Source: Ornithobacterium rhinotracheale DSM 15997 (GTDB lineage Bacteria > Bacteroidota > Bacteroidia > Flavobacteriales > Weeksellaceae). From it: a stretch of DNA of 64,000 bases. This document shows, one piece after another, positions 16,099 through 62,892 of the stretch. A model generated the notes under the pieces. It was not told the DNA's origin. It worked only from the letters and a program-made list of their open reading frames with translations, and made no database searches. The DNA is taken from positions 2,160,001 to 2,224,000 of the forward strand of contig NC_018016.1 of the NCBI RefSeq assembly GCF_000265465.1, written 5' to 3'. The stretch's first letter is position 1. Every line of letters begins with the position of its first letter. Position numbers and translations under genes: made by a program.

Positions 16099-16105
16099 TT
16101 TACTA
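16099..16105. repeat. Target-site duplication, left of IS copy 1
   Basis: TTTACTA, repeated directly at 17082-17088 on the other side of the element. Confidence 0.85.
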
Positions 16106-17081
16106 ACCCGTAGTGCATTATAAAAAAGGTTGCCCATGAGCCTAAAGAAAAGTAAATTGCATTGGTTACCAATCAAATACAATTATGAGCAACCTAGAGG
16201 CAAGTTACAATTTTATTTTGAATAAACTAATAGAATTTTCAGGAACTGAAAATTTCTATTTTAAACCAGTGAAACCAAAATTATCTGATATAGAGCTGAT
16301 AAGCTTAATTATTTTAGCAGAATTTAAATCTATCGATTCTGAGTACCAGCTTTTTAGAGAGATAAAAGGTTGGGCTATTGAATCTAAAATTGAAAGGAGT
16401 GTTTACAACAGAAGAAAACGAAAACTCTTCCCTTTTCTTGAAGAAATTAGGTGCAAAATGGTGAAAAAGTTCAATGATTTTGAAAACTATTTCTTGGTGG
16501 ACAGCATGCCTTTAGAAGTGTGTAAATTATCCCGCTCTTCCAGAAGCAAAATCTGTAAAGAAAATAGCTTTTCAATGCCAAATAAAGGTTTTTGTGCTTC
16601 TCAAAATCTACACTTTTATGGTTACAAGCTACATGCGATCTGTTCTATTGCTGGTGTGTTCCAAAGTTTTGACTTATCTCCCGCCTCCGTTCACGACATT
16701 CATTATTTGAAAGACATAAAACTTCAAATTTCTGATTGCGTGTTACTTGGAGACAGGGGCTATCTTTCTCAAACGGTTCAGCTTGACTTGTTCAATGAGG
16801 TAAAAATCCAGTTAGAAACCCCTAAAAGAAAAAATCAAAAAGATTACAAACCTCAGTTCTATCCATTCAGAAAGTGTAGAAAACGTATAGAAACTTTATT
16901 CTCGCAGTTGTGTGACCAATTTATGATACGGCGTAATTATGCCAAATCTTTTGAAGGATTCAAAACAAGAATATTGGCAAAAATTACCTCCTTGACTACT
17001 ATTCAATATCTCAATAAATTTGTCTTTCATAGTAACATTAACAATTTAAAAATTAACCTCATTCGATAATGCACTACGGGT
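16106..17081 (+). mobile_element. IS982-family insertion sequence, copy 1 (976 bp)
   Basis: Complete element bounded by inverted repeats of about 16 bases (ACCCGTAGTGCATTAT), starting with the ACCC typical of IS982. Flanked by a perfect 7-base duplication TTTACTA, which shows a clean transposition event. It carries one transposase gene. It interrupts a minus-strand gene. The same element occurs inverted at 60589-61564. Confidence 0.93.
16185..17069 (+). CDS. IS982-family DDE transposase
   Basis: The 294-aa transposase has acidic residues in the expected places: Asp in FLVDSMPLEVCK, Asp in LLGDRGYLS, Glu in RKRIETLFSQL. The protein is identical to that of the second copy. The N-terminal region (LEASYNFILNKLIEF) matches the IS982 helix region. 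It fills nearly the whole element. Confidence 0.93.
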   Translation: MSNLEASYNFILNKLIEFSGTENFYFKPVKPKLSDIELISLIILAEFKSIDSEYQLFREIKGWAIESKIERSVYNRRKRKLFPFLEEIRCKMVKKFNDFENYFLVDSMPLEVCKLSRSSRSKICKENSFSMPNKGFCASQNLHFYGYKLHAICSIAGVFQSFDLSPASVHDIHYLKDIKLQISDCVLLGDRGYLSQTVQLDLFNEVKIQLETPKRKNQKDYKPQFYPFRKCRKRIETLFSQLCDQFMIRRNYAKSFEGFKTRILAKITSLTTIQYLNKFVFHSNINNLKINLIR

Positions 17082-48454: not shown

Positions 48455-48568
48455 GTGTTAGATAATTAAGGTTTGGCTAAAATATGGATTTTATTTGAAA
48501 TAAGCGCGTCTAGAAACGAAAAAATAGTCGTTTTCCAAATGCGCTTAAATTTAAAATGGTGAAAGGTT

Positions 48569-49225
48569 TTAGCTTCTTACGAATTTGCCAACGCTCTCTA
48601 GTAGCTGTGGGCGATCTTCTAAAGCGATTCTGGATACGGCGTAGAAATCTCGCACCCAATCGGAAAGCTCGGTAAAGGCTTTGTTTTTCTGTTGGGTAGC
48701 GTTTTGGTTTTCGCCTTTTTCTTTTTCGTATTTGGCGCGTAGGCTTTCCACTTTTTGGATTTGTGCCACTTGGGCTTCTACTACGCTTTGATTGATTTTA
48801 AATTTTTCTAACAAAGGTTTGGCTTCGCTATGGCTTTGGGCTTGCTCATAAAAGGTTTTGATTTCCTCCAATGCCTTGAGATAGGCGGCAGATAGCGTGC
48901 CATCGATAGCGAGGCTTTTCCAGAGTTCTGTTCTTTTCATCAAAGCCACTTTGGCTATTTTTCTGTGTTTGCTGTAGGTTTTTTTTAGGGAGTTAAAGGC
49001 GTTGGCAAATTGGGCATAGGCTTCTTTTTCTTCGGTAGTTTCTTGCTTGTTTTGATTATATAGCTGTTGTGTTTTGTCGAATAGGGCTTTGCCTTCGGCT
49101 ATTTTTTCTTCGTCGTAGCCATATTCTGCCATTTCGGTTTTTAAGTCTTGTACCTCATCTAGATTGGTGAATAGTAATCTGTAATTTTCAAGATATTGGA
49201 GTTCGGAATTTTTTAATTTGCTCAT
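48569..49225 (-). CDS. Helical protein of unknown function
   Basis: The 218-aa protein is almost wholly alpha-helical, charged, with coiled-coil-like stretches and no signal peptide or membrane helix. It begins MSKLKNSELQYLENY. I do not recognise a family. It lies between the adaptor and the repeat block, on the strand of the ABC genes. Confidence 0.65.
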   Translation of the reverse strand: MSKLKNSELQYLENYRLLFTNLDEVQDLKTEMAEYGYDEEKIAEGKALFDKTQQLYNQNKQETTEEKEAYAQFANAFNSLKKTYSKHRKIAKVALMKRTELWKSLAIDGTLSAAYLKALEEIKTFYEQAQSHSEAKPLLEKFKINQSVVEAQVAQIQKVESLRAKYEKEKGENQNATQQKNKAFTELSDWVRDFYAVSRIALEDRPQLLESVGKFVRS

Positions 49226-49340
49226 AATAATTTATTTTAATTGGTTTTCATTCTCCAAATATACAAAAAAAAACAATTATTCTTCTATTCTTATAAGTCA
49301 TTTTTTGATTTTTATTTAAATAAATGGACTCCTGATTGCT

Positions 49341-49448
49341 ATTTTTGTATTCCTACGGATAGTTTTTGTATTTCTACAGGACATTATTGTATTCCTACAA
49401 GGGATTTGTGGGTTCCTACTGGTGATTGTTCTATTCTTATAAGTAATT
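49341..49448. repeat. Imperfect tandem repeats of about 21 bases
   Basis: About five units with the core TTGTATTCCTACAAGGGAT (variants TTTGTATTCCTACGGATAG, TTTGTATTTCTACAGGACAT, TTGTGGGTTCCTACTGGTGAT, TTCTATTCTTATAAGTAAT). A further lone TCTATTCTTATAAGT lies near 49282. The gap 49226-49535 holds only this block and a terminator. Confidence 0.65.
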
Positions 49449-49473
49449 GGGCTGTTTTTAAGAATGATTATTG

Positions 49474-49504
49474 CAAAAAAGCACGAGCATATTGCTCGTG
49501 CTTA
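49474..49504 (-). terminator. Intrinsic terminator of the NlpE-like gene
   Basis: AGCACGAGCA and TGCTCGTGCT with a two-to-three-base loop; T-run on the minus strand. Confidence 0.8.
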
Positions 49505-49535
49505 CAATTATTAGGATGCATTATAGAATGAGATT

Positions 49536-49979
49536 TTAATTCTCTTTGGTCAAAACATACATAGAGGCTAACTCTTCGGTGTTTTTTTGTCCATCAGCGT
49601 TGAGCTGTGTAAGGGTATTGTTTTCGAGTTTATATTTTACAGGTGCTTCTCCTTCTATGTTTATGCTTATTTCAGAGTTTGCTTCATCCCAAATGTATTT
49701 TCCATTTTCTACAAAAGGTTGGTTATTTTTGCCCATATATACACTTTGTAATGTGAAAGTATTATCATTATTTAGTGTAAGGGTAGTTTTTATCCCTTCA
49801 CAATCTGCACAGGGTAAGGTCCCTGTATAAACGCCTTTCCAATTGGTTGCTGTTTCTTCTTTTTGTGTTTCTGTGGTTGTTGGTTTTTCTGTAACTTGTT
49901 TTTTTTGTGATTTGTTGTTACACGCAGAAAGTGCAAGTACTGCCACTGCTACTAATGATAATTTTTTAATTCGATTCAT
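49536..49979 (-). CDS. NlpE-like lipoprotein (copper resistance/envelope sensor domain)
   Basis: The 147-aa protein has lipobox LALSAC (Cys20) and a Lys/Thr-rich linker. The domain begins NWKGVYTGTLPCADCEGIKT, which carries the CxxC of the NlpE N-terminal domain. In E. coli NlpE senses surface and lipoprotein stress; here only the N-terminal domain is present, and the role is unknown. An upstream in-frame ATG at 50030 would hide the signal peptide, so 49979 is the start. Confidence 0.85.
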   Translation of the reverse strand: MNRIKKLSLVAVAVLALSACNNKSQKKQVTEKPTTTETQKEETATNWKGVYTGTLPCADCEGIKTTLTLNNDNTFTLQSVYMGKNNQPFVENGKYIWDEANSEISINIEGEAPVKYKLENNTLTQLNADGQKNTEELASMYVLTKEN

Positions 49980-50183
49980 TTTTTTATTTTTAAAATTATT
50001 ATACAAAGTACATGTCAAAATGCGTGCCATTTTTCGCTTTTTGCTATCGTGACGATGGCTATAAAAATAGTTTTTATAATATTTTTAAAATTATCAAGAC
50101 TTCTTTATTTATAGAAAGTTTCCTCTCTATATCGTTTATTATCGTTATTATGTTGTTGTTCTGCAATGCTACAATTTTTTTAT

Positions 50184-50274
50184 TCGCGTGAGGGATAGAG
50201 CCGATATCCTTTTTGCGAGGCTTTGTGCCGAGCAAAAGATAAAGGCGAGAGCCCGACCCGTAGGGGCACGCCCA
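50184..50274. other. Structured RNA-like intergenic element
   Basis: Outer stem GCGTG (50186-50190) with CACGC (50267-50271) encloses a hairpin GGATA-loop-TATCC, a second hairpin TTTTGC-GA-GGC with GCC-GA-GCAAAA (tandem GA pairs), and CCC-loop-GGG. It is GC-rich compared with its surroundings. No T-run follows on either strand, so it is not a plain terminator. The 318-base gap 49980-50297 holds nothing else that I can see except AT-rich sequence. Confidence 0.5.
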
Positions 50275-50297: not shown

Positions 50298-51545
50298 CTA
50301 CTCCTCTCGCAAGGCGTCGATGGGCTTTATGGCGATGGCGCGTAGGGCGGGAATGAGCCCCGCTAAAAGAGACATAACTAAGACCAATACAAATGCTCCG
50401 AGCAATATTTTGATGTCGATAGAGCTATTTACAAACGGGATATCGTTGTCTTCGGAGTTGGCGACATAGGTGTTTATGCTCGCTAAAAATGCGGTGCCTG
50501 CGATGATGCCTATAAGCCCCGAGAAAAAGGTGATGACGCTACTTTCGATCAAAATCTGACTCACGATTTGGGAGGGCGGTGCGCCCAAGGCTCGGCGGAT
50601 TCCGAATTCTTGTGTGCGCTCCTTGACGGTGATGAGCAAAATCGAGCTCACGGCCAAAACGCCCGCCAAAAGTGTGAAAAAGCCCACGACGACTGTTAGA
50701 AATTCCAAACCTTGCATAAATCTGAACATTTTACCAAACATTTCGCCCAGATTGAATGAGCCAAGTGCCTGTGTATCGTTGGGCGCGATGTGGTGGCGTG
50801 TTTTTAGAAAATCCTTGATTTGCGTTTCTGCTTTTTTGATGTCGGCGTAGTCGTCGATATTGATCACGATTAAGCCCACATTGTTTCCTTGGTTAAAGAT
50901 TTGATTGAAGGTGGCAAATGGAATGGTAACGGTGCTCCCGCTATCTATCCCGCCTTTGGAGTCGCCAGAATATACGCCCACAACTTTGAAACTTACCCCG
51001 TTGATTTGAAGGGTGGTGCCCAGCGGATTGCTCCCTTTGTCATAAAGTTCGTCGATCAAGCGGTCGCTTATCACGGCAACTTTGGCATTATTTTCAATAT
51101 CTTTTTGGGTGATGTATCTGCCCTTTAAAATCTTTTTGACAAAGATTTTGTTTTGCTCTGGGAAATCTCCAAAAATGCTATAATTCCCATTTTTGGCTTG
51201 GTGCACCACGCTTGCGTTGTTTCGCTGGCGAGGCGTGATGATTTTTATTTCTTTAAATTCCTTTTTTAGAGCATCGATGTCACTCAGCTGAAAACGGAAT
51301 GTTCTTCCACGCCCAAATCCGTCGTAGGGAACGCTCGTTTGCTGTGTCCAGATAAAAAGGCTATTGGTGCTTGTGCCTTTCAACTCCTTGTCAAAACCAT
51401 TGCTTAAGCCATTGACCACACCAAGCAAAAACACAAAAAGCAACATGCCCCAAGCTACGCCCACCATGGTGAGCAGCGTGCGTGTCTTGTTTTTTTCTAA
51501 AGCGTGGTAAATTTCGCTCCAAGTATCTCGTTCAAATATCAACAT
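50298..51545 (-). CDS. MacB-like ABC transporter permease (second)
   Basis: The 415-aa protein has an N-terminal helix (LLTMVGVAWGMLLFVFLLGV), a periplasmic MacB core domain (about 50-250) and three C-terminal helices of the FtsX domain, with GIRRALGAPPSQI in the coupling loop. It lies one base after the first permease gene. With the ATPase it forms a MacAB-type (type VII) export or mechanotransmission system; cargo unknown. Confidence 0.9.
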   Translation of the reverse strand: MLIFERDTWSEIYHALEKNKTRTLLTMVGVAWGMLLFVFLLGVVNGLSNGFDKELKGTSTNSLFIWTQQTSVPYDGFGRGRTFRFQLSDIDALKKEFKEIKIITPRQRNNASVVHQAKNGNYSIFGDFPEQNKIFVKKILKGRYITQKDIENNAKVAVISDRLIDELYDKGSNPLGTTLQINGVSFKVVGVYSGDSKGGIDSGSTVTIPFATFNQIFNQGNNVGLIVINIDDYADIKKAETQIKDFLKTRHHIAPNDTQALGSFNLGEMFGKMFRFMQGLEFLTVVVGFFTLLAGVLAVSSILLITVKERTQEFGIRRALGAPPSQIVSQILIESSVITFFSGLIGIIAGTAFLASINTYVANSEDNDIPFVNSSIDIKILLGAFVLVLVMSLLAGLIPALRAIAIKPIDALREE

Positions 51546-60588: not shown

Positions 60589-61564
60589 ACCCGTAGTGCA
60601 TTATCGAATGAGGTTAATTTTTAAATTGTTAATGTTACTATGAAAGACAAATTTATTGAGATATTGAATAGTAGTCAAGGAGGTAATTTTTGCCAATATT
60701 CTTGTTTTGAATCCTTCAAAAGATTTGGCATAATTACGCCGTATCATAAATTGGTCACACAACTGCGAGAATAAAGTTTCTATACGTTTTCTACACTTTC
60801 TGAATGGATAGAACTGAGGTTTGTAATCTTTTTGATTTTTTCTTTTAGGGGTTTCTAACTGGATTTTTACCTCATTGAACAAGTCAAGCTGAACCGTTTG
60901 AGAAAGATAGCCCCTGTCTCCAAGTAACACGCAATCAGAAATTTGAAGTTTTATGTCTTTCAAATAATGAATGTCGTGAACGGAGGCGGGAGATAAGTCA
61001 AAACTTTGGAACACACCAGCAATAGAACAGATCGCATGTAGCTTGTAACCATAAAAGTGTAGATTTTGAGAAGCACAAAAACCTTTATTTGGCATTGAAA
61101 AGCTATTTTCTTTACAGATTTTGCTTCTGGAAGAGCGGGATAATTTACACACTTCTAAAGGCATGCTGTCCACCAAGAAATAGTTTTCAAAATCATTGAA
61201 CTTTTTCACCATTTTGCACCTAATTTCTTCAAGAAAAGGGAAGAGTTTTCGTTTTCTTCTGTTGTAAACACTCCTTTCAATTTTAGATTCAATAGCCCAA
61301 CCTTTTATCTCTCTAAAAAGCTGGTACTCAGAATCGATAGATTTAAATTCTGCTAAAATAATTAAGCTTATCAGCTCTATATCAGATAATTTTGGTTTCA
61401 CTGGTTTAAAATAGAAATTTTCAGTTCCTGAAAATTCTATTAGTTTATTCAAAATAAAATTGTAACTTGCCTCTAGATTGCTCATAATTGTATTTGATTG
61501 GTAACCAATGCAATTTACTTTTCTTTAGGCTCATGGGCAACCTTTTTTATAATGCACTACGGGT
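60589..61564 (-). mobile_element. IS982-family insertion sequence, copy 2 (976 bp)
   Basis: Same element as 16106-17081 in inverted orientation, with the same ACCCGTAGTGCATTAT ends. Left flank TTTAATA and right flank TTTTTTG differ, so there is no target duplication. The right flank is the inside of a CRISPR repeat. This suggests a deletion next to the IS after insertion. Confidence 0.93.
60601..61485 (-). CDS. IS982-family DDE transposase
   Basis: 294 aa, identical in protein sequence to the copy at 16185-17069, with the same DDE residues (FLVDSMPLEV, LLGDRGYLS, RIETLFSQL). Full length and probably active. Confidence 0.93.
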   Translation of the reverse strand: MSNLEASYNFILNKLIEFSGTENFYFKPVKPKLSDIELISLIILAEFKSIDSEYQLFREIKGWAIESKIERSVYNRRKRKLFPFLEEIRCKMVKKFNDFENYFLVDSMPLEVCKLSRSSRSKICKENSFSMPNKGFCASQNLHFYGYKLHAICSIAGVFQSFDLSPASVHDIHYLKDIKLQISDCVLLGDRGYLSQTVQLDLFNEVKIQLETPKRKNQKDYKPQFYPFRKCRKRIETLFSQLCDQFMIRRNYAKSFEGFKTRILAKITSLTTIQYLNKFVFHSNINNLKINLIR

Positions 61565-62892
61565 TTTTTTGTGTGAGTAATCACAAGTCGATGCAAGGCA
61601 AGGAGATGGGGTAGGGTGTTGTAATTAGGTCTCAAATTATTATTTTTGTGTGAGTAATCACAAGATGAACCGCTTAACGGCTAAACAATATCTAGTTGTG
61701 ATTTGCTTTCAAGTTCTTATTTTTGTGTGAGTAATCACAAGCGAAGGGATCACAGGATTAAACTTAGGTTAGTTGTGATTTGCTTTCAAGTTCTTATTTT
61801 TGTGTGAGTAATCACAAGTTTATGTAAATTAAAATAGATTAAAAATGGGTTGTGATTTGCTTTCAAGTTCTTATTTTTGTGTGAGTAATCACAAGTTATA
61901 GAATTTGAAGCTGACGAGGAATTTCGTTGTGATTTGCTTTCAAGTTCTTATTTTTGTGTGAGTAATCACAAGAAATTTCAGAAGCTAAGTTAACGCACAT
62001 AGTTGTGATTTGCTTTCAAGTTCTTATTTTTGTGTGAGTAATCACAAGCAATTTCTTAATTGGTGATAACCAACACCGTTGTGATTTGCTTTCAAGTTCT
62101 TATTTTTGTGTGAGTAATCACAAGAAATGGTCAGAATGTGACGGATGTTTATGTGTTGTGATTTGCTTTCAAGTTCTTATTTTTGTGTGAGTAATCACAA
62201 GTGGCATTCCCTGCGAGTGGACTTACAACAGTTGTGATTTGCTTTCAAGTTCTTATTTTTGTGTGAGTAATCACAAGAACACGCAAAAGATTTAGCCACA
62301 GCGCAGGGTTGTGATTTGCTTTCAAGTTCTTATTTTTGTGTGAGTAATCACAAGAAACAGATGAAGTGTTTAAATCTGGTCCTAGTTGTGATTTGCTTTC
62401 AAGTTCTTATTTTTGTGTGAGTAATCACAAGAAACTTGAAAAGATTCGTTTAGACTATTTAGTTGTGATTTGCTTTCAAGTTCTTATTTTTGTGTGAGTA
62501 ATCACAAGAATCTAAAAGAGCAAAGTGATGGAAGACTGGTTGTGATTTGCTTTCAAGTTCTTATTTTTGTGTGAGTAATCACAAGTATAGGGGGATATTA
62601 CTGCAAGAGAGAGTTGTTGTGATTTGCTTTCAAGTTCTTATTTTTGTGTGAGTAATCACAAGATCTTCTCGATTAATTAATAACCTCATACGTTGTGATT
62701 TGCTTTCAAGTTCTTATTTTTGTGTGAGTAATCACAAGGAGAAAGCACAAGCTAAATTAAAAGAACAAGTTGTGATTTGCTTTCAAGTTCTTATTTTTGT
62801 GTGAGTAATCACAAGACGATATTTAATTATATCGTGGTAGCAAGGGTTGTGATTTGCTTTCAAGTTCTTATTTTTGTGTGAGTAATCACAAG
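61565..62892 (+). CRISPR. Type II-C CRISPR array, 18 repeats (first truncated, second degenerate), 17 spacers
   Basis: The repeat is 47 bases, begins GTTGTGATTTGC and ends GAGTAATCACAAG; TTGTGATT and AATCACAA at the two ends are inverted repeats. Spacers are 29-30 bases. Repeat 1 (61565-61587) is only the 3' half, cut by the IS. Repeat 2 (61618-61664) has six changes, all in its first 22 bases. Repeats 3-18 (61695-62892) look identical. Each repeat contains TTG-N19-TATTTTTG, a Bacteroidota-type promoter pointing into the following spacer. Orientation on the + strand follows the GTTGTG start and that promoter, so the array converges with cas2-cas1. Confidence 0.96.

Follow-up and report, generated by a model that had tools for sequence, protein, structure and literature searches.

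The window, a stretch of 64,000 nucleotides from Ornithobacterium rhinotracheale DSM 15997, carries an 88-base intergenic element between a gene for an NlpE-type lipoprotein and a gene for a MacB/FtsX permease. The genes and the parts of the element are listed here with their window positions:

49536..50030, minus strand: NlpE-type lipoprotein ORF (Pfam scan on 49539-49991)
50186..50273, plus strand: Flavo-1-type element, window subtype (GCGTGAGGGATAG...GGGGCACGCCC), from the RF01705 match at 50178-50262 and our own model R1
50186..50190, plus strand: 5' side of the closing stem P1, GCGTG, pairing with 50267-50271
50192..50254, plus strand: ladder arm with GGG/CCC, a symmetric internal loop, GCC/GGC, ATC/GAT and TTTT/AAAA (fold and covariation)
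50210..50237, plus strand: apical variable hairpin with the GA/GA tandem mismatch (sequence; variation among 110 copies)
50257..50265, plus strand: side hairpin P4, CCC-GTA-GGG, the second variable hairpin in relatives (fold, copies and covariation)
50267..50271, plus strand: 3' side of P1, CACGC, not covered by the 76-position Rfam model, which matches as far as 50262
50298..51545, minus strand: MacB_PCD/FtsX permease gene; the element lies 24 bases beyond its stop and antisense to it

The plus strand of the element folds with -36.9 kcal/mol (z -3.48), and none of 200 shuffled sequences folded as well, whereas the minus strand reached a z of -1.83. The sequence-only reading of this DNA had described a G+C-rich, non-coding element with a closing stem GCGTG/CACGC and a GA/GA tandem mismatch between GC and GGC pairs, and all of this was recovered: the stem lies at 50186-50190/50267-50271, the mismatch is formed by 50217-50218 with 50230-50231, the G+C content is 58% compared with 37.7% in the window (equally rich 91-base windows make up 0.3%), and the sole listed ORF that crosses the element is a mechanical 93-aa GTG frame. 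The three inner hairpins of that reading became two hairpin loops in the fold, one on the long ladder-like arm and one in the small CCC-GTA-GGG hairpin.

With default settings, Rfam gave no match in the window. At a relaxed threshold, the element matched Flavo-1 (RF01705) with 41.3 bits (E 8e-8) over model positions 1-76 of 76, with two non-standard pairs marked, and thus fell 0.7 bit short of the curated gathering score of 42 bits. The second copy in the same genome reached 51.7 bits, above the gathering score, and all 18 homologous loci scanned matched RF01705, ten of them, the second copy of this genome included, with more than 42 bits. Our own model R1 scored the window copy with 82.1 bits, the copy itself being part of the R1 training set. 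On sequence grounds, the window element is an enlarged, sub-threshold Flavo-1 variant outside the canonical membership. The family itself, which the sequence-only reading did not supply, is already named and published as Flavo-1, RF01705. Common to Flavo-1 and the window copy are the ladder arm (GAU..GCGG-AUCC-UUUU ... AAAA-GAU..AGC..), the internal loops, and the host group. However, in the window copy GGG/CCC replaces the CCG/CGG of the Rfam consensus, and the copy adds the GCGTG/CACGC closing stem and the CCC/GGG side hairpin, both without a counterpart in the 76-position model.

The 5'-arm pattern of the window subtype was found in at least 117 stretches in named genomes, and the matches listed come mainly from Flavobacterium and other Flavobacteriales, with some from Sphingobacteriaceae and Chitinophagaceae. 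In the 110 complete elements (107 distinct) among the matches listed, the 3' arm always measures 18 bases, and the apical and 3' hairpins are highly variable in length and sequence with their self-complementarity kept. The element boundaries are sharp in 103-106 flanks, with YY directly outside GCGTG at the 5' end and CAAA directly outside CACGCC at the 3' end. The terminal GCGTG/CACGC corresponds to inverted repeats of the MITE type, covarying and short (5 bases).

For the covariation analysis, we used another set, made up of 57 model hits that came mostly from BLAST or Rfam and not from the pattern; a few of them, the window copy included, had trained the model. In this set, 91.2% of the cells of paired positions were paired. 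Double-sided changes occurred at 21 of 26 pairs among the 55 distinct hits, including four of the five pairs of P1, and at 16 of 18 pairs of helices 2 and 3. The covariation value of 0.369 compared with 0.115 after shuffling (55 distinct hits) and was lost when partners were slid, with the alignment being fitted to the model and hence biased towards the structure. A comparison of G011/G039 with G077/G153 at an orthologous site showed changes in both sides of the apical hairpin.

RF01705 is present in 109 of 199 relatives and in none of 14 controls, with 39, 48, 52, 68, and 110 copies in five complete genomes, and in a sample of 296 genomes from across the phylum, the window-subtype model matched 36. 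This genome holds two Flavo-1 copies and its congeners 1, 1, and 8; the family is nearly gone from this genome, and the window copy is probably a passive resident. A lack of compensatory changes and a single occurrence had been named as counting against the sequence-only reading, and we found double-sided changes at most pairs, two copies here, and up to 110 in relatives. Its alternative of a structured RNA or a multicopy repeat therefore stands as far as a multicopy, covarying structured element is concerned; its RNA half is tentative, and several of the observations described below favor a DNA repeat. A plasmid and phage search gave no match for the window copy. In viral contigs, there were two stretches of the window subtype and no match for the canonical pattern; in two IMG/VR contigs (L218 and L219), one and the same window-subtype copy is flanked by identical sequence.

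In the two closest relatives, the NlpE-type lipoprotein gene is replaced by other genes. G002 has the window copy and the adjoining permease gene at 98% identity, and G001 has kept the permease gene without the element. The far side of the element differs in all three genomes, and the interval from the HlyD-side gene to the permease gene (window 49227-50185; L380:15489-17794 in G002; L381:1687-3817 in G001) is hypervariable, with the lipoprotein gene in the window genome, an EcoRI-type methylase and a GmrSD/HNH nuclease in G002, and a DDE transposase in G001. No evidence supports a functional link between the element and the permease. The window region 48567-50084 has a counterpart in L385 (G036), where the 218-aa gene and the lipoprotein gene beside the element are paired too, at 81% identity, and where another Flavo-1 copy lies about 4 kb from the pair. 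Four further window stretches (16101-16219, 16382-16439, 61231-61288, and 61451-61569) match both flanks of the L381 transposase gene and are possibly remnants of insertion sequences.

The genes around 99 window-subtype copies were oriented ++ in 24, +- in 15, -+ in 23, and -- in 37 cases. Stop codons facing the element were nearer (medians of 32-50 bases) than start codons (75-141 bases), in line with the earlier impression that such sequences recur near gene ends; against this impression, sides with a start codon were equally frequent (107 of 198). No recurrent neighbor gene family was found beyond orthologous sets, and gene-specific cis-regulation was rejected because the neighbor clusters were orthologous sets only.

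Copies align with one another over approximately the hairpin length and then stop (90-107 bases for two units of G011 and about 120 for a third). One G011 site was compared with eight relatives, of which three contained the element and five did not, a pattern that loss fits as well as gain. At this site, no target-site duplication was evident, and an apparent 5-base overlap that resembled one did not survive the alignment. Many copies are old, with interspecies matches of 75-95% in both flanks. Species can also differ in the whole hairpin at an orthologous site where one flank is up to 95% identical (e.g., L124/L162 versus L138/L184). Some variable loops, in L149, L185, and L217, contain GAGGAGGAACGACGAAGC-like sequence, which we take to be a common bacterial repeat and which suggests that the hairpins capture other palindromes. 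As the element can be aligned with itself and the flank on one side is frequently non-coding, we gave no weight to one-sided synteny breaks at elements (27 both sides, 20 left only, and 27 right only). Copies in L111, L119, L188, and L194 have a type IA topoisomerase gene on one side and RteC on the other, and L026 and L191 share the topoisomerase side (the RteC side being present in four of the six); judged by these neighbors, the copies apparently ride on a conjugative transposon. An autonomous element with a gene in its loop was rejected, as the arms were separated by over 150 bases in only one of 131 pairs, and this pair, 3.6 kb apart, we took for a chance pairing.

The helices of Flavo-1 contain 10 G-U and 1037 Watson-Crick pairs, compared with 66 and 703 in the tRNAs of the available loci, in an imperfect comparison, as ARAGORN marks allowed pairs only and the Flavo-1 hits were picked by a covariance model. 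With G-U pairs this rare, most changes in the helices exchange one Watson-Crick pair for a different one. In an RNA helix, a clear G-U excess is expected; G-T mismatches showed no significant excess over A-C, with ratios of 10:5 (p 0.30) in one set and 19:12 in another. A replichore orientation bias, as expected for some single-stranded DNA elements, was seen in two genomes of the same genus (p 0.03 and 0.02) out of four compared, whereas the remaining two showed none, the counts among the matches listed being 29/43, 27/39, 17/29, and 9/20, with ori and ter judged by eye in 20 sampled 10-kb stretches per genome.

We consider it probable, with moderate confidence, that the element belongs to a dispersed, non-coding family of hairpin repeats in Bacteroidota, is homologous to Flavo-1, and acts as a non-autonomous REP/ERIC-like DNA element. 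The copy number of 0-110, the presence or absence between close species, the neutrality towards gene orientation, and the hairpin differences at orthologous sites all argue for this, as does the scarcity of G-U pairs relative to tRNAs. Each of these arguments is suggestive, and none proves a DNA mechanism. Against a DNA repeat speak the old copies, the failure to establish a target-site duplication, and the fact that no mobilizing enzyme was found, with none of 30 Y1 transposase genes flanked. From the arguments in favor, we infer that the working form is DNA rather than RNA and that an enzyme or process that moves the element exists. Such an element would spread between and within genomes, with copies carried by at least the one apparent conjugative transposon, and would settle in intergenic sites with little regard to the direction of transcription. 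It would then fold as a single-strand or cruciform hairpin, which some trans-acting enzyme or recombination process may recognize.

Among known repeats, the ERIC/IRU sequences of enterobacteria are, in the part of the source available to us, described as intergenic, multicopy imperfect palindromes of about 100-130 bases with an unknown mechanism of spread (PMC2229807). As far as this description goes, the likeness to the Flavo-1 element lies in the architecture of an intergenic multicopy palindrome only, as ERIC is tabulated with target-site duplications and TA termini, neither of which is established for the Flavo-1 element. REP sequences are likewise dispersed extragenic hairpins, but they are palindromes of 20-40 bases, whereas the Flavo-1 unit has about 90 bases and two variable hairpins, and in the REP/RAYT system the repeat flanks a RAYT (Y1) transposase gene. 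In the literature accessible to us, a search that included flavobacterial and general repeat topics found no paper that treats Flavo-1 as a DNA repeat.

The database view is that of a structured RNA of the sRNA type, transcribed from many copies, whose helices are kept for their function in the RNA. RF01705 is typed as 'Gene; sRNA', and Flavo-1 is tabled as RNA 'y' in the portion of Weinberg 2010 that we consulted (PMC2864571). The strong covariation would also be expected of an RNA under selection and in this sense counts against a role in DNA only, and the better fold of the plus strand fits an RNA too. Nevertheless, we regard a structured RNA as unlikely, as the relation of the copies to transcription units is inconsistent, with 23 of 99 lying between divergent genes, as G-U pairs are few, and as presence and copy number vary so widely.

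The nearness of facing stop codons and the persistence of many copies at orthologous gene ends could instead mean that the element acts in 3' untranslated regions as a hairpin, on either strand, that affects transcript ends or mRNA stability, and that copies near stops are kept. ERIC has been reported to destabilize upstream mRNA in Yersinia, according to the available part of the same source (PMC2229807). However, about half of the neighboring sides are gene starts, and nearness to stops is also expected if insertion avoids promoters, so that we find this function quite doubtful.

In a third subtype, S3, the outer module is kept and the inner helix is different. Its pattern was found at 18 places in 13 of the 199 relatives, and a reversed-pattern control gave none. 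In an island near gyrB in genus g24 (gyrB was identified by Pfam in L434 and inferred in L431 and L432 from the match to L434), S3 copies lie in one orientation between defense-like modules:

G048 (L431): S3 copies separate an Eco47II-type restriction pair, a Fic gene, and an HNH/GHKL-ATPase/methyltransferase group
G074 (L432): two S3 copies around a methyltransferase/HerA/AAA group
G063 (L434): an S3 copy adjoining a SIR2 gene

A flanking 19-base sequence occurs at eight places in four of six g24 genomes, within the gyrB island four times in G048, twice in G074, and once in G063, and once more in G083. It is conceivable, though we hold it to be a long shot, that the canonical, window, and S3 subtypes, with their exchangeable nested helices, are folded-DNA recombination sites that have been wrongly filed as RNA and where gene modules, defense systems among them, are inserted, swapped, or lost, the hairpin recombining and its complementarity being restored by DNA-level conversion. 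Integron attC sites are likewise folded imperfect palindromes with a variable terminal structure, and S3 resembles them in lying between gene modules in one orientation. By eye, the element ends TTGCGTG and GCCCAAA do not fit what we take to be the attC core-site consensus, and no integrase was recognized. The arrangement of the island would also be explicable by homologous recombination between direct repeats, for which no special enzyme is needed. A general association with defense genes was rejected: PADLOC at E 1e-12 assigned three families among 127 nearest neighbors (two WYL models with at most five members and one PDC-S22), compared with 16 families among 127 distant genes of the same loci (controls: 127 aligned of 145 sampled, drawn from 277).

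Mobilization as a REP-type repeat by a RAYT/Y1 HUH transposase appears highly improbable, as the co-occurrence of Y1 transposases and Flavo-1 in 199 genomes (75/34/14/76, p 2e-14, kinship uncorrected) stands against 34 Flavo-1-positive genomes without a Y1 match, the window's genus included, and as flanking of the RAYT kind is rejected by the absence of elements at 30 Y1_Tnp loci by R1 (within 1.5 kb) and at 20 of these by Rfam.

Since 2010, Flavo-1, which abounds in the genomes of flavobacteria, has been catalogued among the RNAs of unknown function. Should it prove to be a mobile or recombinogenic DNA hairpin, it would be a Bacteroidota counterpart to the REP/ERIC repeats, and many 'Flavo-1 sRNA' annotations would need revision. 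The modular exchange of hairpins and the arrangement in defense islands lead to directly testable predictions.
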